This document shows positions 7,957 to 64,000 of a stretch of DNA of 64,000 bases, piece by piece; position 1 is the stretch's first letter, and each line of letters begins with the position of its first letter. The stretch lies in assembly GCA_963971285.1 (NCBI GenBank), contig OZ020248.1:25533764-25597763 (forward strand). Direction: 5' to 3'. This stretch comes from Astropecten irregularis. Lineage: Eukaryota; Echinodermata; Asteroidea; Paxillosida; Astropectinidae. A program made the position numbers and the translations under genes. The notes under the pieces are model-generated. The model did no database searches. It worked only from the letters and a program-made list of their open reading frames with translations, and was not told the DNA's origin.

Positions 7957-8568
7957 GTTCAGTCCCATAGGACTGAATGGATGTCATGTGCTGTCCATCA
8001 GTGGAACTCTTTCCCAACAAAGTTGTTAGAATCTCTAAGCAAAATTGGTGTTCGTGTACATAAGTCCACTCTTGATCTGGTAAGTCTCGTACCCAGATCC
8101 AACATATGAAAAATCCTATTTAGGTTACTTTACTGTAAAGGATGGGTACACAAATGCCGCAAAATATAACTTATGATGAAACGGCTGGGACGTGCGTTTT
8201 ATGTGATTTATTTTTTCCATCCGCAGCTTTTCAGCCGTGAATTGTTCAAGACCCCTCTCAAGAAACCTCCACTGATGCTGGTGAGCTGGTGAGCTGGTGA
8301 GCCGATCGAAGAACTTTGCATCTCTGATGCCTGCTCCTCTTTACGTTAAAAGGTTAGCCATGCTTTCCTTTTTTGTATCTGCGATTTTCTTGACAATTCC
8401 CCCGTAGGCCTACTCTCTTCACTTCTGGCCTCGTTCTCATCACTCAAGATCCAGTTTTCATCTTCTTTTGAACAGGAGCTGAGGGTGCATGGCCATGTTG
8501 ATGTAGAGGCCCAGGATACAAGACTAAAGCATGTTCACTAAAGGTTCGACTAACCAATTCTCTTTCAG

Positions 8569-8682
8569 CTGTGAACATGCTCAAGACCCTGGGTTGCAAG
8601 TCCTCGATTGCTGCAGTTGATGAGCTGGGAAACCTGGAACCGAAGGGACTGAGGTTGTCTGACGGCCACTCCTTCGCCTTAG
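8569..8682 (+). CDS. Candidate coding exon, unknown protein
   Basis: The acceptor is TCTCTTTCAG, the donor GTGAGACA, the length 114 bp and the phase 1-1. The open frame encodes VNMLKTLGCKSSIAAVDE and then NLEPKGLRLSDGHSFAL. The counterpart at 11521-11637 has a disrupted frame, so only this copy could be functional. No family is recognised. Confidence 0.35.
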
Positions 8683-9819: not shown

Positions 9820-10195
9820 GTGCGGCAGATCACATCACACCTTGGCATTGATGCGATCTCTGTTGTCAAGGGGCTGGACACACCGCCAAGGGGTGTGGGC
9901 CTTACCAACGGCTGTTTCAACAGGGCAGTGGCTTGTCTTAAAGATGCAAGTAATCATGGTCCTCGGCAGGGATAGGGCTGTGGTCTTGTTATCACGAGCG
10001 GGTCTAACGTTGGTACGTCCTCTACCGGCCAACGGGCACGAGAGGGCGGCAAGCACAGATGGTAGGGTACTCCCGAAAGGGGGCGGACCGGACAACGGCG
10101 TTGCTCTATGCCTTCGGGCGTAACCTCGTCAAGCGATGGACTCTACAATCCGGATAGCTTGTTGGGGCTGGTTTCCTGGGACCTTCTCGTTGGTG
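9820..10195. repeat. GC-rich block, copy 1 (duplicated at 12759-13135)
   Basis: This GC-rich block stands out from its AT-rich surroundings and is almost base-identical to 12759-13135. Both strands are open for about 90 codons in both copies. I cannot match it to a known gene or element. Confidence 0.5.
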
Positions 10196-10274
10196 GCCCT
10201 GTTTAAACTGACCTTACCAGGATAAAGACTTCAAGCTGTACCATAAAAGGTTAGTGATTTCCACAAAGAATGTA

Positions 10275-12758: not shown

Positions 12759-13135
12759 GTGCGGCAGATCACATCACACCTTGGCATTGATGCGATCTCT
12801 GTTGTCAAGGGGCTGGACACACCGCCAAGGGGTGTGGGCCTTACCAACGGCTGTTTCAACAGGGCAGTGGCTTGTCTTAAAGATGCAAGTAATCATGGTC
12901 CTCGGCAGGGATAGGGCTGTGGTCTTGTTATCACGAGCGGGTCTAACGTTGGTACGTCCTCTACCGGCCAACGGGCACGAGAGGGCGGCAAGCACAGATG
13001 GTAGGGTACTCCCGAAAGGGGGCGGACCGGACAACGGCGTTGCTCTATGCCTTCGGGCGTAACCTCGTCAAGCGATGGACTCTACAATCCGGATAGCTTG
13101 TTGGGGCTGGTTTCCTGGGACCTTCTCGTTGGTGG
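12759..13135. repeat. GC-rich block, copy 2
   Basis: Almost identical to 9820-10195, including both roughly 90-codon overlapping open frames. Confidence 0.5.
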
Positions 13136-13209
13136 CCCTGTTTAAACTGACCTTACCAGGATAAAGACTTCAAGCTGTACCATAAAAGGTTAGTGATTTT
13201 CACAGAGAA

Positions 13210-13360
13210 TGTAGTATATAACCTCCACTTATTGACATGTTCCAAAATGATCATTAATTTTAGAGTTTGAAAACTAAAACAGGTAGGGTGCAATCCTGAA
13301 TAATGTCGGCAACTTTGTTGTCTTCCGAACTTTGAAGTGGAGGTTATATACTGCATTCCT
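13210..13360. mobile_element. Short foldback element, copy 2
   Basis: Counterpart of 10275-10425 inside the second segmental copy, with the same inverted termini and a few base changes. Confidence 0.6.
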
Positions 13361-13881
13361 AATGCAATTTGTTAAGAATAATTACAAAGTAAGCTGACAA
13401 ATCCAATTTCACTTGTCCAAGCCTAAAACAGAAATCGTGCTGATGGTGACTATTCTGGCATTTATTACAGCATCAAAGTCATGTCCACCCGTCAGTCTCT
13501 TCCCTCTGAAGACAACGTATACAATCAGCCTCTGTTGGAAAAGCCAGACATTCAACTATTTGAATTTGAAATAATTGGTCTTCTTTTCGCAGACTCATAA
13601 TTTTGTCTTGTCTTGTCTTTCTTTGTCTCTGTCTCGATCTGCAGGAGAGCTCAGACCATCTTCACCTGATATTATAAGACGGTTTACATCTTGACGACGT
13701 CTCGAGTCTGGATACAAGTTGATCAGTGAGCACTGCATGACAACTGATGACGTCTCCACTGTGGCTGGCTAGCTGAGGATCCTGAAATTTCTGATAACGT
13801 CTCCTCAGTCATAGGTAAGACATGCTTTCTTTACTTATATGTGCTTCTCTCAACAGTTTAACCAACTAGAGTTGTGGACCT

Positions 13882-14042
13882 GGGGCCTGATGCTTCACTG
13901 ATGCTTTGCAGTCATCACTAAAGCCCAATTCTATCTCTAAACCGAAAATCGATTGCTACTTTTCCTAGCAATTTTCCGTTTAGCGATGGATTTGGGCTTT
14001 TAAGAGCGATAATCGTGGATAAAGTGGGAGTGAAATCGGCCC
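13882..14042. mobile_element. Foldback MITE, copy 2
   Basis: Counterpart of 10963-11112. It begins GGGGCCTGATGCTTCACT and ends AAATCGGCCC, and is more diverged than the central part of the segmental duplication. Confidence 0.6.
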
Positions 14043-14570
14043 TGGTAATACAATTGAACAATAAGGAAACCAAACATGTTGCTTACCGTATTCATGTTTG
14101 GCCTTCGTCTTTATGTCTCATCTTTAGGTGGAACCATATGAACTTTCCTGATGTCGGATGTTTTTACAACTGGTGGAAATGAAGTCATGATACGTACAGA
14201 CTGTTTGGTGAGTTTTGCATGACTGATGACAAAAACGAGCTTTTTATTAAAATTCTGCAGAAATGCTTAAGCTATAACAATTTACCTGCCTCAGCTCAGT
14301 TCAGTCCTACCAAGATGAACGTACCTAGAAGCATAGACCATACGCAGCCTTTTATATAGCTGTCTGCTAAGCAACATGATGAAAAGGTCAGACAATTTAA
14401 CTGACTGGTTCAACCTTTGTCAACTCCTAAGTCTAATCATTGTATGTAATTCAGGTCGTTGTTTTGGTTGAGGAGCAGTTAATAACTTGTATAGGAACCT
14501 GAAATCTGAGCTTTTCTTGTTGTGAATCTGTAATTAATTTGTCAAGGATCTCTCTCTCTCTTCCTTACAG

Positions 14571-15411
14571 ACATGGAAGACCCACGGCGCAGAAGGGAGC
14601 TCACACCCCGCCTGTTCGAAGTCGTAGACCACGGCTAAAGATGGACTACCAAAATAACCCCAATAATCTGAGCCCAGAACGGAAGCTCCCTAAAGGTATG
14701 CCTACGCATTTTGTGGAACTCCAACAGGGGATACATCCTCTCAAGCTCCAGACTGTTAGAGAGGTCCACAAATTCAAACTCATTCTGCTTACCACGTGGT
14801 TTGATTTTCTTAGAAAGGTTACAGGCGTCTCCATCAAAAATTAATTCACAACCTTTCAAAACCTTGTTACTCAACAATCAAAATCATTCAGCGACCTCAC
14901 TTGCTCTGTTGTCAGTCAAGCTTTGGGAGCTGAGCTGCTCAAATTATAAAATATTGATAATTCGGTAGATGATTATCTTTTGATAATTACTACGACCCCG
15001 TCTGGGCAAAAAATATTACATTTGAAAAAAAAAGCAAATCTATACTGGCTTCAAAAGGAATGTATACCACATTGACTGTGGCTAGACAATACGCAGGGCT
15101 GTTGGTAGCAAAACTACTGGAAATGCGCCGTACGGTCGAAAACAGATTCAACTTTTCGAATGAGAATGCAATCTTTGTAGGCCCACTTAATTCACTTGAA
15201 AAAAATCATCGGAAACTGAAATTTGACCTGCACTACATTTAAAAATCCCTCTAAGGACACAATCTTTGGTACAATATGTAATCCTTTTCTTCACTTTTCT
15301 CTTTTTTCCCCTACATACCTGTATATCTTTTCCTGTATCTCAGATGTGGTTGTGAGTCCAGGAGGAAAGGGCCAAGTTACTAACAACCAATCAGCCTCAT
15401 CCAGACTTTAG
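14571..15411 (+). CDS. C-terminal two exons of an unidentified gene
   Basis: Exon 14571-14695 (acceptor TTCCTTACAG, donor GTATGC) joins exon 15344-15411 (acceptor TCCTGTATCTCAG) with matching phase: the final G of the first plus AT gives Asp. The joined tail reads RPRLKMDYQNNPNNLSPERK, then DVVVSPGGKGQVTNNQSASS and stop TAG 15409-15411. It is hydrophilic and Ser/Asn-rich, as in a disordered C-terminus. It may be the 3' end of the gene whose exon remnants fill 8.2-14.2 kb, but I see no proof of linkage. No domain is recognised. Confidence 0.4.
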
Positions 15412-15589
15412 ACGAAAACTTGAAGAAACATCAACCTCTGCAATGTGTGACATTCTGGTCCTTGCCCATCGAAGTGAACTTGAAGGCTGCCTTCTATCCT
15501 TTCTGGAAGCAATATCCTACTTATAGGTTCATGTGTTCTTCATAGTCGTACTCCAAGCGACCAGTTAAATTAATTTCTAACATACTTGT

Positions 15590-17399
15590 AAAACTTAATT
15601 AATTTTTTGGGGTAAAAACGTATTAAAACACGCAAAATGGCATCAGTTGCCATTTTTGATGTTTTTTTGTGTGAAATATTAGAACGATCAAATTTGATCT
15701 TTTCTTGCTGGAAGTGGATGTACTCTCAGACACAAGTACGAGTGATTTCTCTAAGATTTAGAAAGTTGTTTCGGATCATAATTGATAAAAACGGTAAGGG
15801 GTACCCCCTAGTAATTTTTGCTGTTTTGGTGAAAAATAAGAAAGATAAATGAATAAAAATAATCAAACATGATGTTTTCTTGCTGCAAATGTGTTCTTTG
15901 TACTCAAGTAGTTGTGATTTCTGTAAGAATGAGAAACTTTGTATTTTGCATCAACATTGAAAAAACGGTTAGGAGTCCCTCTTGCCATTTTATTGCTGTT
16001 TTGGTGAAAATATAAACTCAGCAAATATGACATTTTGAGACTGGGAATGTGTTCTTTTTACTCCTAGGGACCTGTTCAAGTGATTTGTCAGACATTTGTA
16101 GAACTGCATTTTTGGTCAAAATTTAAATTAAAAAAACCGGCATAGGGGTACCCCTTGCCATTTTTGCTGTTTTGGTGAAAAAATAAACTCATCAAATATG
16201 ATCTTTTCATGCTGGAAATGTTCTTTGTACTCCCAGACACATGAATAAGTGATTTCTGCAAGATTAAGAAACTTTGAATTTTTGTTCAAAATTGATAAAA
16301 ACTGCTTGGGCAAAACTGAGAATAATCCAATTAAGTTCTTTTGATGCTGGAAATGTTTTCTTAGTACTTCTAGCGACCTCTTCAAGAGATTTTTAAGACA
16401 TTTGTAACCTCATTTTTATATCCAAATTGATACAAACGGCAAGGGGTCCCCCTTGCCATTTTTAGTGTTTTTAGTGGTGAAAAAAATAAGCAGATCAAAT
16501 ATGATCTTTTGTCGCTGGAAATGTGTTCTTTGTTCTCTCAGACACAAGTAGGAGCGATTTCTGTAAGATTTATAAACTTTTGGATCCAAATTTATCCAAA
16601 CGGGGTAACCCCTTGCCATATTTGTCATTTTTGGGTGAAAAATCAGAAAGATGAATTATGAATAAAAATGATCCAAAATAAAGATTTCTTGCTGAAAATG
16701 TGTTCTTTGTACTCTCAGACACAAGTACACAAGGGGTTTATGTAAGATTTAGACAGTTTTAATTTCGGGTCAAAATTGCCATTTTTGCTGTTTTGGTGAA
16801 AAAATAAACTGATCAAATATGACATTTTCATGCTCTAAATGTGTTCTTTGTACTCTTCGTACTCTTTGTGACCTGTTAAAGTGATTTTTCGCAGATTTGT
16901 TAAAGTTAATTTTGGGGTCAAAATTAATAATAAAAAAACGGTAAGGGGTACCCCTTGCCATTTTTGCTGTTTTTGGTGAAATAATAAACTGATCAAATAT
17001 CATCTTTTGATGCTAGAAATGTGTTATTTGTACACCTGGGAGACGCGTTTATAAGTGATATCTCCGACATTTTGTAAAATTACTTTTTCTAAGATTGATC
17101 CAGAAGGCCCTAATGGATGTCTACAAGTGAAATGAAGAACTTTCGTGCATAAAAACATATAAATTGGTGTCTTCGAAGGCAATAGAAATTTCAGAACATA
17201 TCAAAAATAGGAAAAAATTGGCAAAAAATGCAAGGGTTGCCGTTTTACAAATTTTGGCAAAATAATTTCCTTTTCTAAAATTGATCCAGAAGGTCGAAAT
17301 TGATGTCTACAACTTAAAAGAAAACAATTCCAAGAATAAAAACGGCAATATAGGGGTCTTTGAAGGCAATAGAAATTATTTCAGAACATATGAAAAATA
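15590..17399. repeat. Diverged palindrome modules, set 2
   Basis: About six irregular tandem modules (about 170-350 bp). Each carries an intact or decayed GGTACC-centred palindrome (near 15796, 16147, 16449, 16605, 16947) and a spacer with TGTTCTTTGTACTCTCAGAC-like sequence. The last part (17100-17399) grades into the spacer type of the main array (CCAGAAGGTC, GATGTCTACAA). Confidence 0.75.
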
Positions 17400-17457
17400 G
17401 GCCAAAATTGGCAAAAACGGCAAGGGGTACCCCTTGCCGTTTTTGCCAATTTTGGCC
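17400..17457. repeat. 58-bp perfect palindrome
   Basis: Each 29-base half reads GGCCAAAATTGGCAAAAACG followed by GCAAGGGGT, and the other half is its exact reverse complement, centred on GGTACC. It is the cleanest copy of the palindrome that punctuates 15.6-34.5 kb. Confidence 0.95.
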
Positions 17458-17559
17458 AAAAAATGACTTTTTCTAAAATTGATCCAGAAGGTCCTAATGG
17501 ATGTCTACAAGTAAATGAACAACTTTCAAGCATAAAAACTGCAATATTACCCCTTGCCG

Positions 17560-17858
17560 TGTGTAATTGATGGTAGCTGTACACATGAAGCCTGTTTGTG
17601 ATTGATGGTAGATGTACATATGAGGCCTGTCTGTGATTGATGGTAGCTATACGTATGCAGCCGGTGTGTGATTGATGGTAGATATACGTATGAGGCCCGT
17701 TTGTGATTGATGATAGATACACGTATGCAGCCCGTGTGTGATTGATGGTAGATATACGTATGAGGCCTGTCTGTGATTGATGGTAGTATTATGCAGCCCG
17801 TGTGTGATTGATGGTAGATATACGTATGAGGCCCGTCTGTGATTGATGGTAGCTATAC
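17560..17858. repeat. 35-bp satellite block A
   Basis: About 8.5 units. It starts with the end-type unit carrying GTACACATGAAGCCTG and ends TAGCTATAC before GGCAAG. Confidence 0.9.
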
Positions 17859-17864
17859 GGCAAG

Positions 17865-18290
17865 GTAGTTCCCACAGTAGTTCCCCAGTATGAAGTAGTG
17901 CCCCCGGTAGTTCCCCTAGTAGTTCCCCCAGTACGAAGTAGTGCCCCCGGTAGTTCCCCCGGTAGTTCCCCAAGTATGGAGTAGTGCCCCCTAGTAGTTC
18001 CCCTAGTAGTTCCCCCAGTACGAAGTAGTGCCCCCGGTAGTTCCCCCGGTAGTTCCCCAAGTATGGAGTAGTGCCCCTAGTAGTTCCCCCACTAGTTCCC
18101 CCAGTACGGAGTCGTGCCCCGGTAGTTCCCCCAGTAGTTCCCCCAGTATGAAGTAGTGCCCCCGGTAGTTCCCCCAGTATGGAGTAGTGCCCCCAGGTAG
18201 TTCCGACAGTAGTTCCCCAGTAGTTCCCCCAGTAGTTCCCCCAGTATGAAGTAGTGCCCCCGGTAGTTCCCCCAGTAGTTCCCCCAGTAT
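17865..18290. repeat. GTAGTTCCCCC minisatellite beside block A
   Basis: A second, unrelated tandem repeat of GTAGTTCCCCCAGTA and AGTAGTGCCCCCG pieces. It starts right after the GGCAAG that closes block A. Its minus-strand open frame (Gly/Tyr/Thr-rich) is a by-product of the repeat. Confidence 0.88.
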
Positions 18291-18563
18291 ATCTACCAAT
18301 ATTTTGCCAAAAAATGACTTTCTCTAAAATCGTTCCAGATGGTCCTAACGGATGTCTACAAGTGAAAGAAACAACTTTCAAGCATAAAAACAGTAATATT
18401 GGTGTCTTAGAAGGCAATAGAAATGATTTCAGAAAGTATACAAAATATGCTAAAATTGGCAAAAAAAATTCTTTTTCTAAAATTGATCCATGAGGTCCTC
18501 ATTGATGTCTACAAGAAAAGGAACAACTTCCAAGCATAAAAAATGCAATATTACCCCTTGCCG
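18291..18563. repeat. Spacer between minisatellite and block B
   Basis: Module of TTGCCAAAAAATGACTT type, shorter (273 bp) than the standard 331-bp spacer. The GGTACC palindrome is missing and replaced by AATTGGCAAAAAAAATTC. Confidence 0.8.
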
Positions 18564-20713
18564 TGTGTAATTGATGGTAGCTGTACACATGAAGCCTGTT
18601 TGTGATTGATGGTAGATAACCGTATGCAGCCTGTCTGTGATTGATGGTAGATATACCTATGAGGTCTGTCTGTGATTGATGGTAGATATACGTATGAGGC
18701 CTGTTTGTGATTGATGTTAGATATACGTATCGAGGCCCGTTTGTGATTGATGATAGATATACGCATGAGGCCTGTCTGTGATTGATGGTAGATATACGTA
18801 TCCAGCCTGTGTGTGATTGATGGTAGATATACGTATGAGGCCTGTTTGTGATTGATGTTAGATATACGTATCGAGGCCCGTTTGTGATTGATGATAGATA
18901 TACGCATGAGGCCTGTCTGTGATTGATGGTAGATATACGTATCCAGCCTGTCTGTGATTGATGGTAGATATACGTATGAAGCTTGTCTGTGATTGATGAT
19001 AGATATACGTATGAGGCCTGTCTGTGATTGATGGTAGATATACGTATGAGGCATGTCTGTGATTGATGGTAGCTATACGTATGAGGCCTGTCTGTGATTG
19101 ATGGTAGCTATACGTATGAGGCATGTCTGTGATTGATGGTAGCTATGAGGCTTGTCTGTGATTGATGGTAGATATACGTATGAAGCTTGTCTGTGATTGA
19201 TGATAGATATACGTATGAGGCATGTCTGTGATTGAAGATAGATATACGTATGAGGCATGTCTGTGATTGATGATAGATATACGTATGAGGCTTGTCTGTT
19301 ATTGATGGTAGATATACGTATGAAGCTTGTCTGTGATTGATGGTAGATATACGTATGCAGCCTGTCTGTGATTGATGGTAGATATACGTATGAGTTCTGT
19401 CTGTGATTGATGGTAGATATACGTATGAAGCTTGTCTGTGATTGATGGTAGATATACGTATGAAGCTTGTCTGTGATTGATGGTAGATATACGTATGAGG
19501 CCTGTCCGTGATTGATGGTAGATATACGTATGAGGCCTGTCTGTGATTGATGGTAGATATACGTATGCAGCCTGTCTGTGATTGATGGTAGCTGTACACA
19601 TGAAGCCTGTTTGTGATTGATGGTAGATATACGTATGAGGCCTGTCTGTGATTGATGGTAGCTATACGTATGCAGCCTGTCTGTGATTGATGGTAGACAT
19701 ACGTATCCAGCCTGTGTGTGTGATTGATGGTAGATATACGTATGAGTTCTGTCTGTGATTGATGGTAGATATACGTATGAAGCTTGTCTGTGATTGATGG
19801 TAGATATACGTATGAAGCTTGTCTGTGATTGATGGTAGATATACGTATGAGGCCTGTCAGTGATTGATGGTAGATATACGTATCCAGCCTGTGTGTGATT
19901 GATGGTAGATATACGTATGAAGCTTGAGTGTGATTGATGGTAGCTATACGTATGAGGCATGTCTGTGATTGATGGTAGCTATACGTATGAGGCCTGTCTG
20001 TGATTGATGGTAGATATACGTATGAAGCTTGTCTGTGATTGATGATAGATATACGTATGAGGCCTGTCTGTGATTGATGGTAGATATACGTATGAGGCAT
20101 GTCTGTGATTGATGGTAGCTATACGTATGAGGCCTGTCTGTGATTGATGGTAGCTATACGTATGAGGCATGTCTGTGATTGATGGTAGCTATGAGGCCTG
20201 TCTGTGATTGATGGTAGATATACGTATGAAGCTTGTCTGTGATTGATGATAGATATACGTATGAGGCATGTCTGTGATTGAAGATAGATATACGTATGAG
20301 GCATGTCTGTGATTGATGATAGATATACGTATGAGGCTTGTTTGTTATTGATGGTAGATATACCTATGAAGCTTGTCTGTGATTGATGGTAGATATACGT
20401 ATGCAGCCTGTCTGTGATTGATGGTAGATATACGTATGAGTTCTGTCTGTGATTGATGGTAGATATACGTATGAAGCTTGTCTGTGATTGATGGTAGATA
20501 TACGTATGAAGCTTGTCTGTGATTGATGGTAGATATACGTATGAGGCCTGTCCGTGATTGATGGTAGATATACGTATGAGGCCTGTCTGTGATTGATGGT
20601 AGATATACGTATGAGTTCTGTCTGTGATTGATGGTAGATATACGTATGAGGCCTGTCTGTGATTGATGGTAGCAATACGTATGCAGCCTGTGTGTGATTG
20701 ATGGTAGCTATAC
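18564..20713. repeat. 35-bp satellite block B
   Basis: About 61 units in a mosaic of variants (GAGGCC, GAAGCT, GAGGCA, GCAGCC, GAGTTC, TCCAGC after the TACGTAT core). The first unit is the GTACACATGAAGCC end type. Its distal part repeats in blocks C and D. Confidence 0.9.
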
Positions 20714-21044
20714 GGCAAGCCCTTGCCGTTTTTGCCTATTTTGGCAAAAAAATGACTTTTTCTAAAACTGTTCCAGAGGGTCCTAATGGATGTCTACAAG
20801 TGAAAGAAGCAACTTTCAAGCATGAAAACAGCAATATTGGTATCTTAGAAGGCAATAGAAATGATTTCAGAAAATATCAAAAAAAGGCAAAATTGGCAAA
20901 AACGGCAAGGGGTACCCCTTGCCGTTTTTGCCAATATTGGCCCAAAAATGACTTTTTCTAAAATTGATCCAGAAGGTCCTTATTGATGTCTACAAGTAAA
21001 GGAAAAATTTTCAAGCATAAAAAATGCAATATTACCCCTTGCCG
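20714..21044. repeat. Palindromic spacer B/C (331 bp)
   Basis: It begins GGCAAGCCCTTGCCG, carries the GGTACC-centred palindrome (44 bp perfect, centre 20912/20913), and ends ATTACCCCTTGCCG. Confidence 0.9.
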
Positions 21045-23402
21045 TGTGTGATTGATGGTAGATATACGTATGAAGCTTGTCTGTGATTGATGATAGATAT
21101 ACGTATGAGGCATGTCTGTGATTGAAGATAGATATACGTATGAGCCCTGTCTGTGATTGATGGTAGATATACGTATGAGGCCTGTCTGTGATTGATGGTA
21201 GATATACGTATGATGCCTGTTTGTGATTGATGGTAGCTATACGTATGCAACCTGTGTGTGATTGATTGTAGATATACGTATGAGGCTTGTCGGTGAATGA
21301 TGGTAGCTATACGTATGAAGCTTGTCTGTGATTGATGGTAGATATACGTATGAAGCTTGTCTGTGATTGATGGTAGATATACGTATGAGGCCTGTCCGTG
21401 ATTGATGGTAGATATACGTATGAGGCCTGTCTGTGATTGATGGTAGATATACGTATGAGTTCTGTATGTGATTGATGGTAGATATACGTATGAGGCCTGT
21501 CCGTGATTGATGGTAGCTATACGTATCCAGCCTGTGTGTGATTGATGGTAGATATACGTACGAAGCTTGAGTGTGATTGATGGTAGCTATACGTATGAGG
21601 CATGTCTGTGATTGATGGTAGCTACACGTTTGAGGCCTGTCTGTGATTGATGGTAGATATACGTATGAAGCTTGTCTGTGATTGATGGTAGCTATACGTA
21701 TGAGGCCTGTCTGTGATTGATGGTAGATATACGTATGAAGCTTGTCTGTGATTGATGATAGATATACGTATGAGGCCTGTCTGTGATTGATGGTAGATAT
21801 ACGTATGAAGCATGTCTGTGATTGATGGTAGCTATACGTATGAGGCCTGTCTGTGATTGATGGTAGCTATACGTATGAGGCATGTCTGTGATTGATGGTA
21901 GCTATGAGGCCTGTCTGTGATTGATGGTAGATATACGTATGAAGCTTGTCTGTGATTGATGATAGATATACGTATGAGGCATGTCTGTGATTGATGATAG
22001 ATATACGTATGAGGCTTGTCTGTTATTGATGGTAGATATACGTATGAAGCTTGTCTGTGATTGATGGTAGATATACGTATGCAGCCTGTCTGTGATTGAT
22101 GGTAGATATACGTATGAGTTCTGTCTGTGATTGATGGTAGATATACGTATGAAGCTTGTCTGTGATTGATGGTAGATATACGTATGAGGCCTGTCCGTGA
22201 TTGATGGTAGATATACGTATGAGGCCTGTCTGTGATTGATGGTAGATATACGTATGCAGCCTGTCTGTGATTGATGGTAGCTGTACACATGAAGCCTGTT
22301 TGTGATTGATGGTAGATATACGTATGAGGCCTGTCTGTGATTGATGGTAGCTATACGTATGCAGCCTGTCTTTGATTGATGGTAGACATACGTATCCAGC
22401 CTGTGTGTGTGATTGATGGTAGATATACGTATGAGTTCTGTCTGTGATTGATGGTAGATATACGTATGAAGCTTGTCTGTGATTGATGGTAGATATACGT
22501 ATGAAGCTTGTCTGTGATTGATGGTAGATATACGTATGAGGCCTGTCAGTGATTGATGGTAGATATACGTATCCAGCCTGTGTGTGATTGATGGTAGATA
22601 TACGTATGAAGCTTGAGTGTGATTGATGGTAGCTATACGTATGAGGCATGTCTGTGATTGATGGTAGCTATACGTATGAGGCCTGTCTGTGATTGATGGT
22701 AGATATACGTATGAAGCTTGTCTGTGATTGATGATAGATATACGTATGAGGCCTGTCTGTGATTGATGGTAGATATACGTATGAGGCATGTCTGTGATTG
22801 ATGGTAGCTATACGTATGAGGCCTGTCTGTGATTGATGGTAGCTATACGTATGAGGCATGTCTGTGATTGATGGTAGCTATGAGGCCTGTCTGTGATTGA
22901 TGGTAGATATACGTATGAAGCTTGTCTGTGATTGATGATAGATATACGTATGAGGCATGTCTGTGATTGAAGATAGATATACGTATGAGGCATGTCTGTG
23001 ATTGATGATAGATATACGTATGAGGCTTGTTTGTTATTGATGGTAGATATACCTATGAAGCTTGTCTGTGATTGATGGTAGATATACGTATGCAGCCTGT
23101 CTGTGATTGATGGTAGATATACGTATGAGTTCTGTCTGTGATTGATGGTAGATATACGTATGAAGCTTGTCTGTGATTGATGGTAGATATACGTATGAAG
23201 CTTGTCTGTGATTGATGGTAGATATACGTATGAGGCCTGTCCGTGATTGATGGTAGATATACGTATGAGGCCTGTCTGTGATTGATGGTAGATATACGTA
23301 TGAGTTCTGTCTGTGATTGATGGTAGATATACGTATGAGGCCTGTCTGTGATTGATGGTAGCAATACGTATGCAGCCTGTGTGTGATTGATGGTAGCTAT
23401 AC
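21045..23402. repeat. 35-bp satellite block C
   Basis: About 67 units. The order of unit variants matches block D with an offset of 2689 bp over most of its length. Confidence 0.9.
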
Positions 23403-23733
23403 GGCAAGCCCTTGCCGTTTTTGCCTATTTTGGCAAAAAAATGACTTTTTCTAAAACTGTTCCAGAGGGTCCTAATGGATGTCTACAAGTGAAAGAAGCA
23501 ACTTTCAAGCATGAAAACAGCAATATTGGTATCTTAGAAGGCAATAGAAATGATTTCAGAAAATATCAAAAAAAGGCAAAATTGGCAAAAACGGCAAGGG
23601 GTACCCCTTGCCGTTTTTGCCAATATTGGCCCAAAAATGACTTTTTCTAAAATTGATCCAGAAGGTCCTTATTGATGTCTACAAGTAAAGGAAAAATTTT
23701 CAAGCATAAAAAATGCAATATTACCCCTTGCCG
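23403..23733. repeat. Palindromic spacer C/D (331 bp)
   Basis: Same sequence as spacer B/C, 2689 bp downstream of it. Confidence 0.9.
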
Positions 23734-26231
23734 TGTGTGATTGATGGTAGATATACGTATGAAGCTTGTCTGTGATTGATGATAGATATACGTATGAGGC
23801 ATGTCTGTGATTGAAGATAGATATACGTATGAGCCCTGTCTGTGATTGATGGTAGATATACGTATGAGGCCTGTCTGTGATTGATGGTAGATATACGTAT
23901 GATGCCTGTTTGTGATTGATGGTAGCTATACGTATGCAACCTGTGTGTGATTGATTGTAGATATACGTATGAGGCTTGTCGGTGAATGATGGTAGCTATA
24001 CGTATGAAGCTTGTCTGTGATTGATGGTAGATATACGTATGAAGCTTGTCTGTGATTGATGGTAGATATACGTATGAGGCCTGTCCGTGATTGATGGTAG
24101 ATATACGTATGAGGCCTGTCTGTGATTGATGGTAGATATACGTATGAGTTCTGTATGTGATTGATGGTAGATATACGTATGAGGCCTGTCCGTGATTGAT
24201 GGTAGCTATACGTATCCAGCCTGTGTGTGATTGATGGTAGATATACGTACGAAGCTTGAGTGTGATTGATGGTAGCTATACGTATGAGGCATGTCTGTGA
24301 TTGATGGTAGCTACACGTTTGAGGCCTGTCTGTGATTGATGGTAGATATACGTATGAAGCTTGTCTGTGATTGATGGTAGCTATACGTATGAGGCCTGTC
24401 TGTGATTGATGGTAGATATACGTATGAAGCTTGTCTGTGATTGATGATAGATATACGTATGAGGCCTGTCTGTGATTGATGGTAGATATACGTATGAAGC
24501 ATGTCTGTGATTGATGGTAGCTATACGTATGAGGCCTGTCTGTGATTGATGGTAGCTATACGTATGAGGCATGTCTGTGATTGATGGTAGCTATGAGGCC
24601 TGTCTGTGATTGATGGTAGATATACGTATGAAGCTTGTCTGTGATTGATGATAGATATACGTATGAGGCATGTCTGTGATTGATGATAGATATACGTATG
24701 AGGCTTGTCTGTTATTGATGGTAGATATACGTATGAAGCTTGTCTGTGATTGATGGTAGATATACGTATGCAGCCTGTCTGTGATTGATGGTAGATATAC
24801 GTATGAGTTCTGTCTGTGATTGATGGTAGATATACGTATGAAGCTTGTCTGTGATTGATGGTAGATATACGTATGAGGCCTGTCCGTGATTGATGGTAGA
24901 TATACGTATGAGGCCTGTCTGTGATTGATGGTAGATATACGTATGCAGCCTGTCTGTGATTGATGGTAGCTGTACACATGAAGCCTGTTTGTGATTGATG
25001 GTAGATATACGTATGAGGCCTGTCTGTGATTGATGGTAGCTATACGTATGCAGCCTGTCTTTGATTGATGGTAGACATACGTATCCAGCCTGTGTGTGTG
25101 ATTGATGGTAGATATACGTATGAGTTCTGTCTGTGATTGATGGTAGATATACGTATGAAGCTTGTCTGTGATTGATGGTAGATATACGTATGAAGCTTGT
25201 CTGTGATTGATGGTAGATATACGTATGAGGCCTGTCAGTGATTGATGGTAGATATACGTATCCAGCCTGTGTGTGATTGATGGTAGATATACGTATGAAG
25301 CTTGAGTGTGATTGATGGTAGCTCTACGTATGAGGCATGTCTGTGATTGATGGTAGCTATACGTATGAGGCCTGTCTGTGATTGATGGTAGATATACGTA
25401 TGAAGCTTGTCTGTGATTGATGGTAGATATACGTATGAAGCTTGAGTGTGATTGATGGTAGCTATACGTATGAGGCATGTCTGTGATTGATGGTAGCTAT
25501 ACGTATGAGGCCTGTCTGTGATTGATGGTAGCTATACGTATGAGGCCTGTCTGTGATTGATGATAGATATACGTATGAGGCCTGTCTGTGATTGATGGTA
25601 GATATACGTATGAGGCATGTCTGTGATTGATGGTAGCTATACGTATGAGGCCTGTCTGTGATTGATGGTAGCTATACGTATGAGGCATGTCTGTGATTGA
25701 TGGTAGCTATGAGGCCTGTCTGTGATTGATGGTAGATATACGTATGAAGCTTGTCTGTGATTGATGATAGATATACGTATGAGGCATGTCTGTGATTGAA
25801 GATAGATATACGTATGAGGCATGTCTTTGATTGATGATAGATATACGTATGAGGCTTGTTTGTTATTGATGGTAGATATACCTATGGAGCTTGTCTGTGA
25901 TTGATGGTAGATATACGTATGCAGCCTGTCTGTGATTGATGGTAGATATACGTATGAGTTCTGTCTGTGATTGATGGTAGATATACGTATGAAGCTTGTC
26001 TGTGATTGATGGTAGATATACGTATGAAGCTTGTCAGTGATTGATGGTAGATATACGTATGAGGCCTGTCCGTGATTGATGGTAGATATACGTATGAGGC
26101 CTGTCTGTGATTGATGGTAGATATACGTATGAGTTCTGTCTGTGATTGATGGTAGATATACGTATGAGGCCTGTCTGTGATTGATGGTAGCAATACGTAT
26201 GCAGCCTGTGTGTGATTGATGGTAGCTATAC
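23734..26231. repeat. 35-bp satellite block D
   Basis: About 71 units. It is 140 bp (four units) longer than block C, with an extra partial repeat near 25380-25520. Confidence 0.9.
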
Positions 26232-26563
26232 GGCAAGCCCTTGCCGTTTTTGCCTATTTTGGCAAAAAAATGACTTTTTCTAAAACTGTTCCAGAGGGTC
26301 CTAATGGATGTCTACAAGTGAAAGAAGCAACTTTCAAGCATGAAAACAGCAATATTGGTATCTTAGAAGGCAATAGAAATGATTTCAGAAAATATCAAAA
26401 AAAGGCCAAAATTGGCAAAAACGGCAAGGGGTACCCCTTGCCGTTTTTGCCAATATTGGCCCAAAAATGACTTTTTCTAAAATTGATCCAGAAGGTCCTT
26501 ATTGATGTCTACAAGTAAAGGAAAAATTTTCAAGCATAAAAAATGCAATATTACCCCTTGCCG
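26232..26563. repeat. Palindromic spacer D/E (332 bp)
   Basis: One base longer than spacers B/C and C/D, with the same two half-palindrome borders. Confidence 0.9.
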
Positions 26564-27113
26564 TGTGTGATTGATGGTAGATATACGTATGAAGCTTGTC
26601 TGTGATTGATGATAGATATACGTATGAGGCATGTCTGTGATTGAAGATAGATATACGTATGAGGCATGTCTGTGATTGATGATAGATATACGTATGAGGC
26701 TTGTCTGTTATTGATGGTAGATATACGTATGAAGCTTGTCTGTGATTGATGGTAGATATACGTATGCAGCCTGTCTGTGATTGATGGTAGACATACGTAT
26801 CCAGCCTGTGTGTGTGATTGATGGTAGATATACGTATGAGTTCTGTCTGTGATTGATGGTAGATATACGTATGAAGCTTGTCTGTGATTGATGGTAGATA
26901 TACGTATGAAGCTTGTCTGTGATTGATGGTAGATATACGTATGAGGCCTGTCCGTGATTGATGGTAGATATACGGATGAGGCCTGTCTGTGATTGATGGT
27001 AGATATACGTATGAGTTCTGTCTGTGATTGATGGTAGATATACGTATGAGGCCTGTCTGTGATTGATGGTAGCAATACGTATGCAGCCTGTGTGTTATTG
27101 ATGGTAGCTATAC
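26564..27113. repeat. 35-bp satellite block E
   Basis: About 16 units. Near-end units TGTGTTATTGATGG and TATACGGATGAGG are shared only with block H. Confidence 0.88.
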
Positions 27114-27847
27114 GGCAAGCCCTTGCCGTTTTTGCCTATTTTGGCAAAAAAATGACTTTTTCTAAAACTGTTCCAGAGGGTCCTAATGGATTTCTACAAG
27201 TGAAAGAAGCAACTTTCAAGCATGAAAACAGCAATATTGGTATCTTAGAAGGCAATAGAAATGATTTCAGAAAATATCAAAAAAAGGCCAAAATCGGCAA
27301 AAACGGCAAGGGGTACCCCTTGCCGTTTTTGCCAATTTTGGCCAAAAAATGACTTTTTCTAAAATTGTTCCAGAAGGTCCTAATGGATGTCTACAAGTGA
27401 AAGAAGCAACTTTCATGCATAAAAACAGCAATATTGGTGTCTTAGAAGGCAATAGAAATGATTTCAGAAAACATAAAAAAAAGGCCAAAATCGGCAAAAA
27501 CGGCAAGGGGAACCCCTTTCCGTTTTTGCCAATATTGGCCAAAAAATGACTTTTCTAAAATTGAGCCAGAAGGTCCTTATTGATGTTTACAAGTAAAGGA
27601 ACAACTTTCAAGCATAAAAACAGCAATATTGGTGTCTAAGAAGGCACAAGAAATGATTTCAGAAAATATCAAAAAAAGGCCAAAATCGGCAAAAATCGGC
27701 AAAAACGGCAAGGGGTACCCCTTGCCGTTTTTGCCAATATTGGCCAAAAAATTAATTTTTCTAAAATTGAGCCAGAAGGTCCTTATTGATGTCTACAAGT
27801 AAAGGAACAACTTTCAAGCATAAAAACTGCAATATTACCCCTTGCCG
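27114..27847. repeat. Palindromic spacer E/F (734 bp, two extra modules)
   Basis: Three palindromes, near 27320, 27510 and 27718. One has decayed to GGGGAACCCCTTTCCG. The length is 331 plus about two modules. Confidence 0.9.
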
Positions 27848-28502
27848 TGTGTAATTGATGGTAGCTGTACACATGAAGCCTGTTTGTGATTGATGGTAGC
27901 TATACGTATGCAGCCTGTCTGTGATTGATGGTAGATATACGTATGAGGCCTGTCTGTGATTGATGATAGATATACGTATGAGGCCTGTCTGTGATTGATG
28001 GTAGATATACGTATGAGGCCTGTCTGTGATTGATGGTAGCTATACGTATCCAGCCTGTGTGTGATTGATGGTAGATATACGTATGAAGCCTGTTTGTGAT
28101 TGATGGTAGATATACGTATGAGGCCTGTCTGTGATTGATGGTAGATATACGTATGAAGCTTGTCTGTGATTGATGGTAGATATACGTATGCAGCCTGTCT
28201 GTGATTGATGGTAGATATATACGTATGAGTTCTGTCTGTGATTGATGGTAGATATACGTATGAAGCTTGTCTGTGATTGATGGTAGATATACGTATGAAG
28301 CTTGTCTGTGATTGATGGTAGATATACGTATGAGGCCTGTCCGTGATTGATGGTAGATTTACGTATGAGGCCTGTCTGTGATTGATGGTAGATATACGTA
28401 TGAGTTCTGTCTGTGATTGATGGTAGATATACGTATGAGGCCTGTCTGTGATTGATGGTAGTAATACGTATGCAGCCTGTGTGTGATTGATGGTAGCTAT
28501 AC
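27848..28502. repeat. 35-bp satellite block F
   Basis: About 19 units. The first unit is the GTACACATGAAGCC end type; one unit has a 2-bp TA insertion near 28217. Confidence 0.88.
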
Positions 28503-28834
28503 GGCAAGCCCTTGCCGTTTTTGCCTATTTTGGCAAAAAAATGACTTTTTCTAAAACTGTTCCAGAGGGTCCTAATGGATGTCTACAAGTGAAAGAAGCA
28601 ACTTTCAAGCATGAAAACAGCAATATTGGTATCTTAGAAGGCAATAGAAATGATTTCAGAAAATATCAAAAAAAGGCCAAAATTGGCAAAAACGGCAAGG
28701 GGTACCCCTTGCCGTTTTTGCCAATATTGGCCCAAAAATGACTTTTTCTAAAATTGATCCAGAAGGTCCTTATTGATGTCTACAAGTAAAGGAAAAATTT
28801 TCAAGCATAAAAACTGCAATATTACCCCTTGCCG
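28503..28834. repeat. Palindromic spacer F/G (332 bp)
   Basis: Standard spacer with one palindrome (centre near 28709) and both half-palindrome borders. Confidence 0.9.
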
Positions 28835-30330
28835 TGTGTGATTGATGGTAGATATACGTATGAAGCTTGTCTGTGATTGATGATAGATATACGTATGAGG
28901 CATGTCTGTGATTGAAGATAGATATACGTATGAGGCATGTCTGTGATTGATGATAGATATACGTATGAGGCTTGTCTGTTATTGATGGTAGATATACGTA
29001 TGAAGCTTGTCTGTGATTGATGGTAGATATACGTATGCAGCCTGTCTGTGATTGATGGTAGACATACGTATCCAGCCTGTGTGTGTGATTGATGGTAGAT
29101 ATACGTATGAGTTCTGTCTGTGATTGATGGTAGATATACGTATGAAGCTTGTCTGTGATTGATGGTAGATATACGTATGCAGCCTGTCTGTGATTGATGG
29201 TAGACATACGTATCCAGCCTGTGTGTGTGATTGATGGTAGATATACGTATGAGTTCTGTCTGTGATTGATGGTAGATATACGTATGAAGCTTGTCTGTGA
29301 TTGATGGTAGATATACGTATGAAGCTTGTCTGTGATTGATGGTAGATATACGTATGAGGCCTGTCAGTGATTGATGGTAGATATACGTATGAGGCCTGTC
29401 TGTGATTGATGGTAGATATACGTATGAGTTCTGTATGTGATTGATGGTAGATATACGTATGAGGCCTGTCCGTGATTGATAGTAGCTATACGTATCCAGC
29501 CTGTGTGTGATTGATGGTAGATATACGTATGAAGCTTGAGTGTGATTGATGGTAGCTATTCGTATGAGGCATGTCTGTGATTGATGGTAGCTTTACGTAT
29601 GAGGCCTGTCTGTGATTGATGGTAGATATACGTATGAAGCTTGTCTGTGATTGATGATAGATATACGTATGAGGCCTGTCTGTGATTTATGGTAGATATA
29701 CGTATGAGGCATGTCTGTGATTGATGGTAGCTATACGTATGAGGCCTGTCTGTGATTGATGGTAGCTATACGTATGAGGCATGTCTGTGATTGATGGTAG
29801 CTATGAGGCCTGTCTGTGATTGATGGTAGATATACGTATGAAGCTTGTCTGTGATTGATGATAGATATACGTATGAGGCATGTCTGTGATTGAAGATAGA
29901 TATACGTATGAGGCATGTCTGTGATTGATGATAGATATACGTATGAGGCTAATTGTCTGTTATTGATGGTAGATATACGTATGAAGCTTGTCTGTGATTG
30001 ATGGTAGATATACGTATGCAGCCTGTCTGTGATTGATGGTAGATATACGTATGAGTTCTGTCTGTGATTGATGGTAGATATACGTATGAAGCTTGTCTGT
30101 GATTGATGGTAGATATACGTATGAAGCTTGTCTGTGATTGATGGTAGATATATACGTATGAGGCCTGTCCGTGATTGATGGTAGATATACGTATGAGGCC
30201 TGTCTGTGATTGATGGTAGATATACGTATGAGTTCTGTCTGTGATTGATGGTAGATATACGTATGAGGCCTGTCTGTGATTGATGGTAGCAATACGTATG
30301 CAGCCTGTGTGTGATTGATGGTAGCTATAC
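28835..30330. repeat. 35-bp satellite block G
   Basis: About 43 units, with a local duplication of the TCCAGCCTGTGTGTGTG unit near 29070 and 29215. Confidence 0.88.
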
Positions 30331-30661
30331 GGCAAGGCCTTGCCGTTTTTGCCAATTTTGGCAAAAAAATACTTTTTCTAAAACTGTTCAAGAGGGTCCT
30401 AATGGATGTCTACAAGTGGAAGAAGCAACTTTCAAGCATAAAAACAGCAATATTGGTATCTTAGAAGGCAATAGAAATGATTTCAGAAAATATCCAAAAT
30501 AGGCCAAAATCGGCAAAAACGGCAAGGGGTACCCCTTGCCGTTTTTGCCAATATTGGCCCAAAAATGACTTTTTCTAAAATTGAGCCAGAAGGTCCTTAT
30601 TGATGTCTACAAGTAAAGGAACAACTTTCAAGCATAAAAACTGCAATATTACCCCTTGCCG
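30331..30661. repeat. Palindromic spacer G/H (331 bp)
   Basis: The left border is the intact short palindrome GGCAAGGCCTTGCC; the GGTACC palindrome is centred near 30530. Confidence 0.9.
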
Positions 30662-31176
30662 TGTGTAATTGATGGTAGCTGTACACATGAAGCCTGTTTG
30701 TGATTGATGGTAGCTATACGTATGCAGCCTGTCTGTGATTGATGGTAGATATACGTATGAGGCCTGTCTGTGATTGATGGTAGATATACGTATGAGGCCT
30801 GTCTGTGATTGATGGTAGCTATACGTATCCAGCCTGTGTGTGATTGATGGTAGACATACGTATCCAGCCTGTGTGTGTGATTGATGGTAGATATACGTAT
30901 GAGTTCTGTCTGTGATTGATGGTAGATATACGTATGAAGCTTGTCTGTGATTGATGGTAGATATACGTATGAAGCTTGTCTGTGATTGATGGTAGATATA
31001 CGTATGAGGCCTGTCCGTGATTGATGGTAGATATACGGATGAGGCCTGTCTGTGATTGATGGTAGATATACGTATGAGTTCTGTCTGTGATTGATGGTAG
31101 ATATACGTATGAGGCCTGTCTGTGATTGATGGTAGCAATACGTATGCAGCCTGTGTGTTATTGATGGTAGCTATAC
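30662..31176. repeat. 35-bp satellite block H
   Basis: About 15 units. It starts with the end-type unit and is closed by the TGTGTTATTGATGG variant, as in block E. Confidence 0.88.
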
Positions 31177-32296
31177 GGCAAGCCCTTGCCGTTTTTGCCT
31201 ATTTTGGCAAAAAAATGACTTTTTCTAAAACTGTTCCAGAGGGTCCTAATGGATTTCTACAAGTGAAAGAAGCAACTTTCAAGCATGAAAACAGCAATAT
31301 TGGTATCTTAGAAGGCAATAGAAATGATTTCACAAAATATCAAAAAAAGGCCAAAATCGGCAAAAACGGCAAGGGGTACCCCTTGCCGTTTTTGCCAATT
31401 TTGGCCAAAAAATGACTTTTTCTAAAATTGTTCCAGAAGGTCCTAATGGATGTCTACAAGTGAAAGAAGCAACTTTCAAGCATGAAAACAGCTATATTGG
31501 TGTCTTAGAAGGCAATCGAAATGATTTCAGAAAATATCAAAAAAAGGCCAAAATCGGCAAAAACGGCAAGGGGTACCCCTTGCCGTTTTTGCCCATTTTG
31601 GCCAAAAAATGACTTTTTCTTAAATTGTTCCAGAAGGTCCTAATGGATGTCTACAAGTGAAAGAAGCAACTTTCAAGCATAAAAACAGCAATATTGGTGT
31701 CTTAGAAGGCAATAGAAATGATTTCAGAAAATATCAAAAAAAGGCCAAAATCGGCAAAAACGGCAAGGGGAACCCCTTTGCCGTTTTTGCCAATATAGGC
31801 CAAAAAATGACTTTTTCTAAAATTGAGCCAGAAGGTCCTTATTGATGTCTACAAGTAAAGGAACAACTTTCAAGCATAAAAACAGCAATATTGGTATCTT
31901 AGAAGGCAATAGAAATGATTTCAGAAAATATCAAAAAAAGGCCAAAATCGGCAAAAACGGCAAGGGGTACCCCTTGCCGTTTTTGCCAATTTTGGCCAAA
32001 AAATGACTTTTTCTAAAATTGTTCCAGAAGGTCCTTATGGATGTCTACAAGTGAAAGAAGCAACTTTCAAGCATAAAAACAGCAATATTGGTGTCTTAGA
32101 AGGCAATAGAAATGATTTCAGAAAATATCAAAAAAAGGCCAAAATCGGCAAAAACGGCAAGGGGAACCCCTTGCCGTTCTTGCCAATATATGCCAAAAAA
32201 TGACTTTTTCTAAAATTGAGCCAGAAGGTCCTTATTGATGTCTACAAGTAAAGGAACAACTTTCAAGCATAAAAACTGCAATATTACCCCTTGCCG
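31177..32296. repeat. Palindromic spacer H/I (1120 bp, four extra modules)
   Basis: Five tandem modules with palindromes near 31380, 31580, 31775, 31968 and 32165. Two of these have GGGGAACCCC at the centre, which breaks perfect symmetry. Confidence 0.9.
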
Positions 32297-32957
32297 TGTG
32301 TAATTGATTGTAGCTGTGCACATGAAGCCTGTTTGTGATTGATGGTAGCTATACGTATGCAGCCTGTCTGTGATTGATGGTAGATATACGTATGAGGCCT
32401 GTCTGTGATTGATGATAGATATATACGTATGAGGCCTGTCTGTGATTGATGGTAGATATACGTATGAGCCCTGTCTGTGATTGATGATAGATATACGTAT
32501 GAGGCCTGTTTGTGATTGATGGTAGATATACGTATGAGGCCTGTTTGTGATTGATGGTAGATATACGTATGAGGCCTGTTTGTGATTGATGGTAGCAAAA
32601 CGTATGCAGCCTGTGTGTGATTGATGGTAGATATACGTATGAGGCCTGTTTGTGATTGATGATAGATAGGCCTATACGCATGAGACCTGTTTGTGATTGA
32701 TGATAGATATACGCATGAGACCTGTCTGTGATTAATGATAGATATACGTATGAGGCCTGTTTGTGATTGATGATAGATATACGTATGAGGCCTGTTTGTG
32801 ATTGATGGTAGATATACGTATGAGGCCTGTTTGTGATTGATGGTAGATATACGTATGAGGCCTGTTTGTGATTGATGATAGATATACGCATGAGGCCTGC
32901 TTGTGATTGATGGTACCAATACGTATGCAGCCTGTGTGTGATTGATGGTAGCTATAC
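32297..32957. repeat. 35-bp satellite block I
   Basis: About 19 units, richer than other blocks in GATGATAGATATACGCATG and TTTGTGATTGATG variants. One unit has an insertion GGCC near 32669. Confidence 0.88.
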
Positions 32958-33288
32958 GGCAAGGCCTTGCCGTTTTTGCCAATTTTGGCAAAAAAATACT
33001 TTTTCTAAAACTGTTCAAGAGGGTCCTAATGGATGTCTACAAGTGGAAGAAGCAACTTTCAAGCATAAAAACAGCAATATTGGTATCTTAGAAGGCAATA
33101 GAAATGATTTCAGAAAATATCCAAAATAGGCCAAAATCGGCAAAAACGGCAAGGGGTACCCCTTGCCGTTTTTGCCAATATTGGCCAAAAAATTACTTTT
33201 TCTAAAATTGAGCCAGAAGGTCCTTATTGATGTCTACAAGTAAAGGAACAACTTTCAAGCATAAAAACTGCAATATTACCCCTTGCCG
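32958..33288. repeat. Palindromic spacer I/J (331 bp)
   Basis: Near copy of spacer G/H, including AAAAAAATACTTTTTC and TGGAAGAAGCAAC variants. Confidence 0.9.
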
Positions 33289-33661
33289 TGTGTAATTGAT
33301 GGTAGCTGTACACATGAAGCCTGTTTGTGATTGATGGTAGCTATACGTATGCAGCCTGTCTGTGATTGATGGTAGATATACGTATGAGGCCTGTCTGTGA
33401 TTGATGGTAGATATACGTATGAGGCCTGTCTGTGATTGATGGTAGCTATACGTATCCAGCCTGTGTGTGATTGATGGTAGATATACGTATGAAGCCTGTT
33501 TGTGATTGATGGTAGATATACGTATGAGGCCTGTCTGTGATTGATGGTAGATATACGTATGAGGCCTGTCTGTGATTGATGGTAGATATACGTATGAGGC
33601 CTGCTTGTGATTGATGGTAGCAATACGTATGCAGCCTGTGTGTGATTGATGGTAGCTATAC
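33289..33661. repeat. 35-bp satellite block J
   Basis: About 10.5 units, starting with the end-type unit and closing TAGCTATAC. Confidence 0.88.
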
Positions 33662-34559
33662 GGCAAGGCCTTGCCGTTTTTGCCAATTTGGGCCAAAAAA
33701 TGACTTTTTCTAAAACTGTTCAAGAGGGTCCTAATGGATGTCTACAAGTGAAAGAAGCAACTTTCAAACATAAAAACAGCAATATTGGTATCTTAGAAGG
33801 CAATAGAAATGATTTCAGAAAATATTTAAAAAAAGGCCAAAATCGGCAAAAACGGCAAGGGGTACCCCTTGCCGTTTTTGCCAATTTTGGCCAAAAAATG
33901 ACTTTTTCTAAAATTGTTCCAGAAGGTCCCAATGGATGTCTACAAGTGAAAGAAACAACTTTCAAGCATAAAAACAGCAATATTGGTGTCTTAGAAGGCA
34001 ATAGAAATGATTTCAGAAAATATCCAAAATAGGCCAAAAACGGCAAGGGGTACCCCTTGCCGTTTTTGCAAATTTTGGCCAAAAAATAAATTTTTCTAAA
34101 ATTGTTCCAGAAGGTCCTAACGGATGTCTACAAGTGAAAGAAACAACTTTCAAGCATAAAAACAGCAATATTGGTGTCTTAGAAGGCAATAGAAATGATT
34201 TCAGAAAATATCCAAAATAGGCCAAAATCGGCAAAAACGGCAAGGGGTACCCCTTGCCGTTTTTGCAAATTTTGGCCAAAAAATTACTTTTTCTAAAATT
34301 GTTCCAGAAGGTCCTAATGGATGTCTACAAGTGAAAGAAAAAACTTTCAAGCATAAAAACAGCAATATTGGTGTCTTAGAAGGCAATAGAAATGATTTCA
34401 GAAAATATCAAAAATAGGCCAAAGTCGGCAAAAACGGCAAGGGGTACCCCTTGCCGTTTCTGCCAATTTTGGCAAAAAAGTGACTTTTTCTAAAATTGTT
34501 CCAGAAGGTCCTAATGGATGTCTACAAGTGTCTAAAAACAGCAATATTACCCCTTGCCG
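33662..34559. repeat. Palindromic spacer J/K (898 bp, three extra modules)
   Basis: Palindromes near 33870, 34057, 34250 and 34446. The last module is internally deleted before ATTACCCCTTGCCG. Confidence 0.9.
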
Positions 34560-34690
34560 TGTGTAATTGATGGTAGCTATACATATGAAGCCTGTTTTTG
34601 ATTGATGGTAACTATACGTATGAGGCCTGTCTGTGATTGATGGTAGCTTTATGTATAAAAGCCTGTCTGTGATTGATGGTAGCTGTACGT
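34560..34690. repeat. 35-bp satellite block K (array edge)
   Basis: Four degenerate units (CATATGAAGCC, TTTATGTATAAAAG). The array then stops without a closing half-palindrome and gives way to unrelated DNA. Confidence 0.85.
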
Positions 34691-34793
34691 ATTTGGTATT
34701 TCTTATCGACCAGAGTCACTGTAGGCGGCTTACACACATGTCAAGATTATGCTGCTGCTGCTTCTTTTGACAGAAATTACATAGAAGTAATAA

Positions 34794-37326: not shown

Positions 37327-64000
<26,674 letters not shown>

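Follow-up and report, generated by a model that had tools for sequence, protein, structure and literature searches.

Among the known systems closest to the subject of this analysis, an array of alternating satellites in the starfish Astropecten irregularis, are two composite repeats of Xenopus: miDNA4, reportedly described by Scalvenzi & Pollet 2014, and the Xstir tandem repeats with their miniature inverted-repeat transposable element (MITE), said to have been described by Hikosaka & Kawahara 2004. The array occupies about 17.1-34.7 kb of a 64,000-nucleotide stretch (the window; contig OZ020248.1, here C11, positions 25,533,764-25,597,763) in a genome of 475.7 Mb and 168 contigs. It consists of 11 blocks of a 35-bp repeat, the 35-mer, alternating with spacers built of ~197-bp modules. 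As far as the available excerpts of two papers go, miDNA4 of Xenopus tropicalis is a Tc1/mariner MITE with an internal satellite, which has been proposed to have captured a tandem repeat that already existed, with microhomologies (PMC12628747, PMC9659126).

How does the Astropecten locus compare? Like miDNA4 in those excerpts (PMC12628747, PMC9659126), it has a unit that ends in inverted repeats and contains a tandem repeat whose copy number varies, with 9-72 monomers between the inverted ends in blocks 1-10 and the right arm absent in block 11. Unlike miDNA4, the carriers stand in tandem, the captured 35-mer is widely dispersed outside the modules, and the loaded form is not an element dispersed by transposition, its junctions having been found at two paralogous places only. 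The composite most likely spread by duplication, not transposition. Its history looks like the one proposed for miDNA4, with the MITE status of the modules being putative.

The locus shares with Xstir, for which an excerpt of PMC12628747 gives a stem-and-loop model, the combination of inverted-ended units and tandem arrays. Unlike the Xstir repeats, which according to the same excerpt may stem from the MITE interior (PMC12628747), the 35-mer shows no more similarity to the module body than shuffled sequence does (257 of 300 shuffles reach its score). The Tetris foldback elements and TIR-220 arrays of Drosophila virilis are similar in that tandem repeats in inverted-ended units seed satellites, with unequal crossing-over; they differ in that the repeats of Tetris are located within long terminal inverted repeats, with which they have a stretch in common (excerpt of PMC4079207). 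The amphioxus 'mirage' minisatellites resemble the locus in the turnover of tandem repeats with array edges outside homogenisation, and differ in duplicating exon-intron borders (excerpt of PMC3087553). A literature text search with two short stretches of the Astropecten repeats found no paper.

The reading favoured here, at a probability of about 0.76, is that an old module satellite captured the 35-mer once and that duplication and in-register exchange then multiplied the composite. The single origin of the junction is inferred from the distribution of its copies. Precise and repeated satellite borders can follow from such a history without a site-specific enzyme, and the series of junction copies provides material for studying the capture of one repeat by another. 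The locus is a clean and traceable example of a composite satellite, of moderate interest.

Block borders and palindromic modules

The block borders described in an initial annotation of the window are confirmed, and the interpretation attached to them is supported in part. All 11 blocks follow the identical 19 bases GCAATATTACCCCTTGCCG, and 10 of the 11 end ...GGTAGCTATAC before GGCAAG; block 11 gives way to unique sequence near 34,692. The junctions are base-precise and repeated, as claimed, with the same left flank in 11 of 11 blocks and GGCAAG at 10 of 10 right borders. Since CCTTGCCG occurs 38 times in the window and just once outside 17-34.7 kb, chance is excluded for these borders. GGCAAG is preceded by TAGCTATAC in all 10 blocks with a right border, where the annotation had written 'usually', and is followed by CCCTTGCCG in six blocks, GCCTTGCCG in three and a 12-mer array in one.

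Other details have to be amended. The borders were equated with the two arms of a palindrome; the arms are present, but the left border is larger, lying after a module truncated near base 119 of 197. The palindrome, thought to sit inside each spacer, is found in nine of the ten inter-block spacers, and spacer 1 holds a 12-mer array instead. The end units, said to be conserved, are uniform on the right (...GGTAGCTATAC in 10 of 10) but of two kinds on the left. Blocks 1, 2, 6, 8, 9, 10 and, in diverged form, 11 begin TGTGTAATTGATxGTAGC..., as do blocks at a second place, C11:24.04 Mb. Blocks 3, 4, 5 and 7 begin TGTGTGATTGATGGTAGATATACG..., with the border position unchanged. The suggestion of a repeat that expands inside a palindrome-ended element holds to the extent that the 35-mer of blocks 1-10 lies, and varies in length, between palindrome arms.

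The palindrome CGGCAAGGGGTACCCCTTGCCG lies where head-to-tail modules meet, with TA at its centre between neighbours. A perfect 22-bp copy, the core of a longer hairpin, lies at 31,958-31,979 (no strand assigned). The seven intact modules of the window measure 188-205 bp and have inverted ends of 21-31 bp (at most three mismatches); a representative one of 197 bp, with terminal inverted repeats of ~30 bp, lies at 31,969-32,165 on the plus strand. As a single strand, the palindrome stretch folds into one hairpin of -31.2 kcal/mol, compared with a mean of -11.1 for shuffled sequences (sd 2.4; z -8.4). Genome-wide, a 199-base module query has at least 301 matches on at least 11 contigs. The search for the palindrome, proposed in the annotation as a check, found it at 519 places (at most one mismatch); five of the seven palindrome loci read (L059-L065) have no 35-mer array within the stretch.

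Module bodies vary, being 197 bp of the window kind, 197 bp of another kind (L060), ~427 bp (L059) or longer (L063, L064), and the ends of these differing bodies read AAAAACGGCAAGGGG and CCCCTTGCCGTTTTT or near it. As in a MITE, the seven intact window units are short and non-coding and carry terminal inverted repeats. None of six candidate single-copy modules stands alone, each adjoining at least part of another module. Neighbouring modules share the TA at the palindrome centre, and no clean flanking duplication was seen by eye at array ends. Judged by their sequence, the modules resemble a family of MITE-like units with inverted ends that stand in tandem.

Distribution and copying of the junctions

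Where else do the junctions of the window occur? The left-junction pattern (up to three substitutions) has 23 matches genome-wide, and reading the full list showed the arm in 17 of them (11 in the window, six at C11:24,042-24,057 kb); the other six are 35-mer variants without the arm. The right-junction pattern (up to two substitutions) has 21 matches, of which 15 are real, ten in the window and five at the C11:24.04 Mb place. All real junctions that match these substitution-only patterns are confined to the two places, 1.5 Mb apart on one contig.

The left flanks of the two places are collinear, and the places are therefore read as one segmental duplication. The collinear stretch spans window 11,256-16,952 (no strand assigned; C11:24.0354-24.0406 Mb, 68-92% identity by piece): window 11,256-13,167 matches C11:24,035,432-24,037,384 at 92.4%, and further pieces lie at 13,166-14,045 (90.8%), 14,817-15,968 (81.1%) and 16,342-16,952 (68.4%). 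The right flanks have scattered common pieces only. The junction may be read from these alignments as older than the segmental duplication or as carried over with it. At the second place the left context is as in the window and the right context mostly so, although one block has apparently lost 13 bases of its left border between two TTG (by eye). At C11:24,056,667 an intact right palindrome CGGCAAGGGGTACCCCTTGCCG follows the 35-mers, which is taken here as probably nearer the original state.

A ~7.3-kb inverted 35-mer array stands beside the forward blocks of the second place (C11:24.044-24.051 Mb; L053 about 4001 to L054 about 1370).

Copying is also evident within the window. A segment of 3,317 bp, made up of 1,281 bp of block 2, the whole of spacer 2 and 1,705 bp of block 3, is found again around spacer 3 at an offset of 2,689 bp and with three mismatches. 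Blocks with similar upstream sequence (118 bp) also tend to be similar over their first 130 bp (r=0.52; none of 2000 permutations reached this value), and the monomer strings have common runs from the borders inwards. Because by pattern the junctions lie only at two paralogous places and a near-identical duplication crosses them, the borders do not seem to be independent events. The recurrent cut or copy process at the palindrome that the annotation had considered is thus not needed. Its premise that drift cannot give precise ends overlooks in-register unequal exchange within a block, which keeps the outer junctions. Such exchange would account for a different first monomer in blocks 3, 4, 5 and 7 at an unchanged border, without any constraint on block ends.

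The 35-mer is a minisatellite separate from the modules and dispersed in its own right. A search with one 26-base pattern (at most one mismatch) gave 7,729 matches (3,810 + 3,919), and the reversed control gave none. The annotation had named 35-mer loci without half-palindrome borders as evidence that would speak against its interpretation, and these were found: window-type borders were seen at none of 15 loci read, with 26 of the 30 edges inside the stretches and one edge each of L046-L049 (four in all) outside. Together the 15 loci take in the listed matches of the 35-mer search, about 100 of the 7,729, and lie on contigs C1 and C8 only. At two of them (L048, L049), 35-mer arrays stand beside palindrome modules but are joined at points other than those of the window. 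Variants of the 35-mer elsewhere read GCTTGCCTGTG, with over 20 in L048. The left 'half-palindrome' is thus in part also similar to the 35-mer.

Five of the 15 loci, all on C8 (L039, L042-L045), have one other context in common, a ~240-bp tandem repeat different from the modules and ending in a short 35-mer array. Ends of this repeat were looked for beside the 35-mers of these five loci and not found. Its recurrence at five places represents another route of 35-mer spread.

Origin of the composite and rival explanations

How might the composite have arisen? Its base would be an old family of ~197-bp non-coding modules, with inverted ends meeting head to tail in the TA-centred 22-bp palindrome. 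At the ancestral locus, a dispersed 35-mer array would have been joined once into a module array, on the left to the arm CCCCTTGCCG, which in turn adjoins a module truncated at base ~119, and on the right to the arm CGGCAAGGGG. The two repeats may first have been joined when a break at or close to the hairpin-forming palindrome was repaired. Such a join may have been guided by short matches, namely CTTGCC in the arm with CTTGTC or CTTGCC in the 35-mer and, on the right, ACG; the 35-mer DNA next to the left arm CTTGCCG has monomers reading AAGCTTGTCTGTG here and GCTTGCCTGTG elsewhere. Segmental duplication (C11:24.04 Mb) and tandem duplication of composite units would then have copied the junctions, and in-register unequal exchange would have shifted block lengths while keeping the outer borders.

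Several observations weigh against a single capture followed by copying. On the right side, where the 190 bp after the block were compared with its last 300 bp in nine blocks, the correlation is weaker (r=0.50, a value reached in 101 of 2000 permutations). Two blocks at the second place end without the right arm, and the duplication may have run either to or from C11:24.04 Mb. The microhomology extends over no more than 3-6 bp, includes mismatches and was recognised post hoc. A separate join between 35-mer and palindrome arm, GGCAAG followed directly by CTTGCCTGTGATTGATG, lies at C8:36.4848 Mb (L087; one exact match genome-wide), and at C8:36.80 Mb (L066) a 35-mer array abuts the palindrome centre. 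These two joins indicate that joining near the palindrome occurred more than once in the genome. The junction patterns allow substitutions only and miss joins with bases gained or lost, as at L087; this blindness to indels, together with the common CTTGCC variants of the 35-mer in L048, tempers confidence.

Could a palindrome-directed process, such as hairpin breaks or an endonuclease, keep making these junctions, with the palindrome as a fragile capture site? The hairpin of -31.2 kcal/mol is strong, and other 35-mer or 12-mer joins lie at or near palindromes at L066, L087 and window 17,858. Among hand-read array edges, 11 of 37 fall within 12 nt of the palindrome centre where 4.7 would be expected if edges were uniform (p=0.005); this count leaves out the window's three palindrome-side junctions, with which it becomes 14 of 40, and the counts are soft, since the distances were read by hand, duplicates were merged by eye and deletions from one module to another were excluded. 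However, a separate set of 20 edge stretches yielded 15 of a possible 20 edges, some probably internal deletions that were retained, with three within 12 nt (p=0.29). Units with inverted ends would form arrays that begin and end at the palindrome regardless, and copying accounts for the identical junctions of the window. The edge excess at the palindrome is weak, a lead and not a result, and such a recurrent process seems unlikely to have made the junctions. Should minisatellites prove to enter preferentially at palindromes, the origin of composite satellites would be tied to inverted repeats prone to form hairpins. A visual impression that minisatellites enter most often in the middle of the module did not stand up (9 of 37 edges, with about 8.5 expected).

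The 35-mer block and its half-palindrome ends might instead be a transposable element with short inverted ends and a TA target, inserted 11 times. Inverted CCCCTTGCCG and CGGCAAG arms do flank 10 of the 11 blocks, the right arm at C11:24.0567 Mb is complete with TA, and TA-centred inverted ends presumably fit a Tc1/mariner-like MITE. Such an element is nevertheless very improbable and is largely refuted by the junctions, which a pattern search of all 475.7 Mb places at the two paralogous places and not dispersed. Moreover, the left module stops at ~119 and does not resume after the block, and no target duplication was seen by eye. It is scarcely credible that the assembler mis-joined or copied repeats, even though a 3,317-bp tandem copy with three mismatches is of the kind that assemblers can miscount: the junction is also present at another, diverged place, where the blocks differ in content and palindromes are intact, and contents and lengths differ among the blocks of the window.

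The 35-mer is not the only minisatellite found in module arrays. A 12-mer enters module arrays at L053, L061, L062, L077 and L088 as well as in the window. Among edge stretches of 10 module arrays fetched regardless of minisatellites, 3 of 20 abut one (L077, L087, L088). At C16:20.0500-20.0530 Mb (L060), a polypyrimidine minisatellite and palindrome modules form composite units of ~1,186 bp, whose left edge reads ...TTTTTTGCCG directly followed by TCTGCTTCC; this is a second composite satellite of the same design. It is tempting to speculate that TA-centred palindromes are fragile sites that repeatedly take up minisatellites (the 35-mer, the AGTAGTTCCCCC 12-mer and the CTGCCTCC polypyrimidine) by microhomology-guided repair, which would make the modules a genome-wide trap and incubator of satellites; the idea is tentative and, on balance, doubtful.

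At C29:509.5-513 kb (L065), inverted interstitial TTAGGG/CCCTAA runs lie between a 35-mer array and palindrome modules.

Layout of the array and its flanks

The array is satellite DNA with higher-order structure, with head-to-tail monomers and tandem duplication of multi-monomer units. It holds 338 monomers of the 35-mer in 81 variants, in blocks of 133-2,498 bp with 4-72 monomers each. On the plus strand, a module truncated near base 119 and terminating in ATTACCCCTTGCCG (17,432-17,559) provides the left border context common to all blocks. Block 1 (17,560-17,858, 9 monomers) is followed by the palindrome-free spacer 1 (17,859-18,563), in which the 12-mer/43-mer minisatellite AGTAGTTCCCCC (17,864-18,290) is joined directly 3' of the half-palindrome CGGCAAGG.

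Block 2 (18,564-20,713) has 62 monomers, and spacer 2 (20,714-21,044) has one ~197-bp module, one cut module and one palindrome. Spacers 2, 3, 4, 6, 7 and 9 are 331-332 bp long. Blocks 3 (21,045-23,402) and 4 (23,734-26,231) have 68 and 72 monomers, and block 5 (26,564-27,113) has 16. Spacer 5 (27,114-27,847) contains three palindromes, two of them exact. The next three blocks have 19 (block 6, 27,848-28,502), 43 (block 7, 28,835-30,330) and 15 monomers (block 8, 30,662-31,176). Spacer 8 (31,177-32,296) comprises several module units and one cut unit, with four palindromes (at most three substitutions; three exact). Block 9 (32,297-32,957) has 19 monomers and block 10 (33,289-33,661) has 11. 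Spacer 10 (33,662-34,559) has four palindromes, and block 11 (34,560-34,692) has four monomers and no right half-palindrome. All of these blocks and spacers are on the plus strand.

Older, diverged palindrome-ended modules, some with a different body, lead into the array at 15,762-17,100, and a short array of related modules, some with a different older body, lies outside the main span at 5,260-5,960 (no strand assigned to either). A ~2-kb unit of the left flank stands in tandem, at window 8,227-10,228 (93.9%) and 11,256-13,167, both copies matching C11:24.035 Mb at 92-94%; a 122-aa open frame in this unit (8502-8870) has no Pfam match. Scans of the window for tRNA genes and Rfam families gave no match at their thresholds. 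Other minisatellites of the window have units of 12, 39/56 and 27 bp (4,772-5,023, 38,803-39,245 and 57,322-57,532, respectively). To the right of the array lie minus-strand exons with EGF-like and CUB domains.

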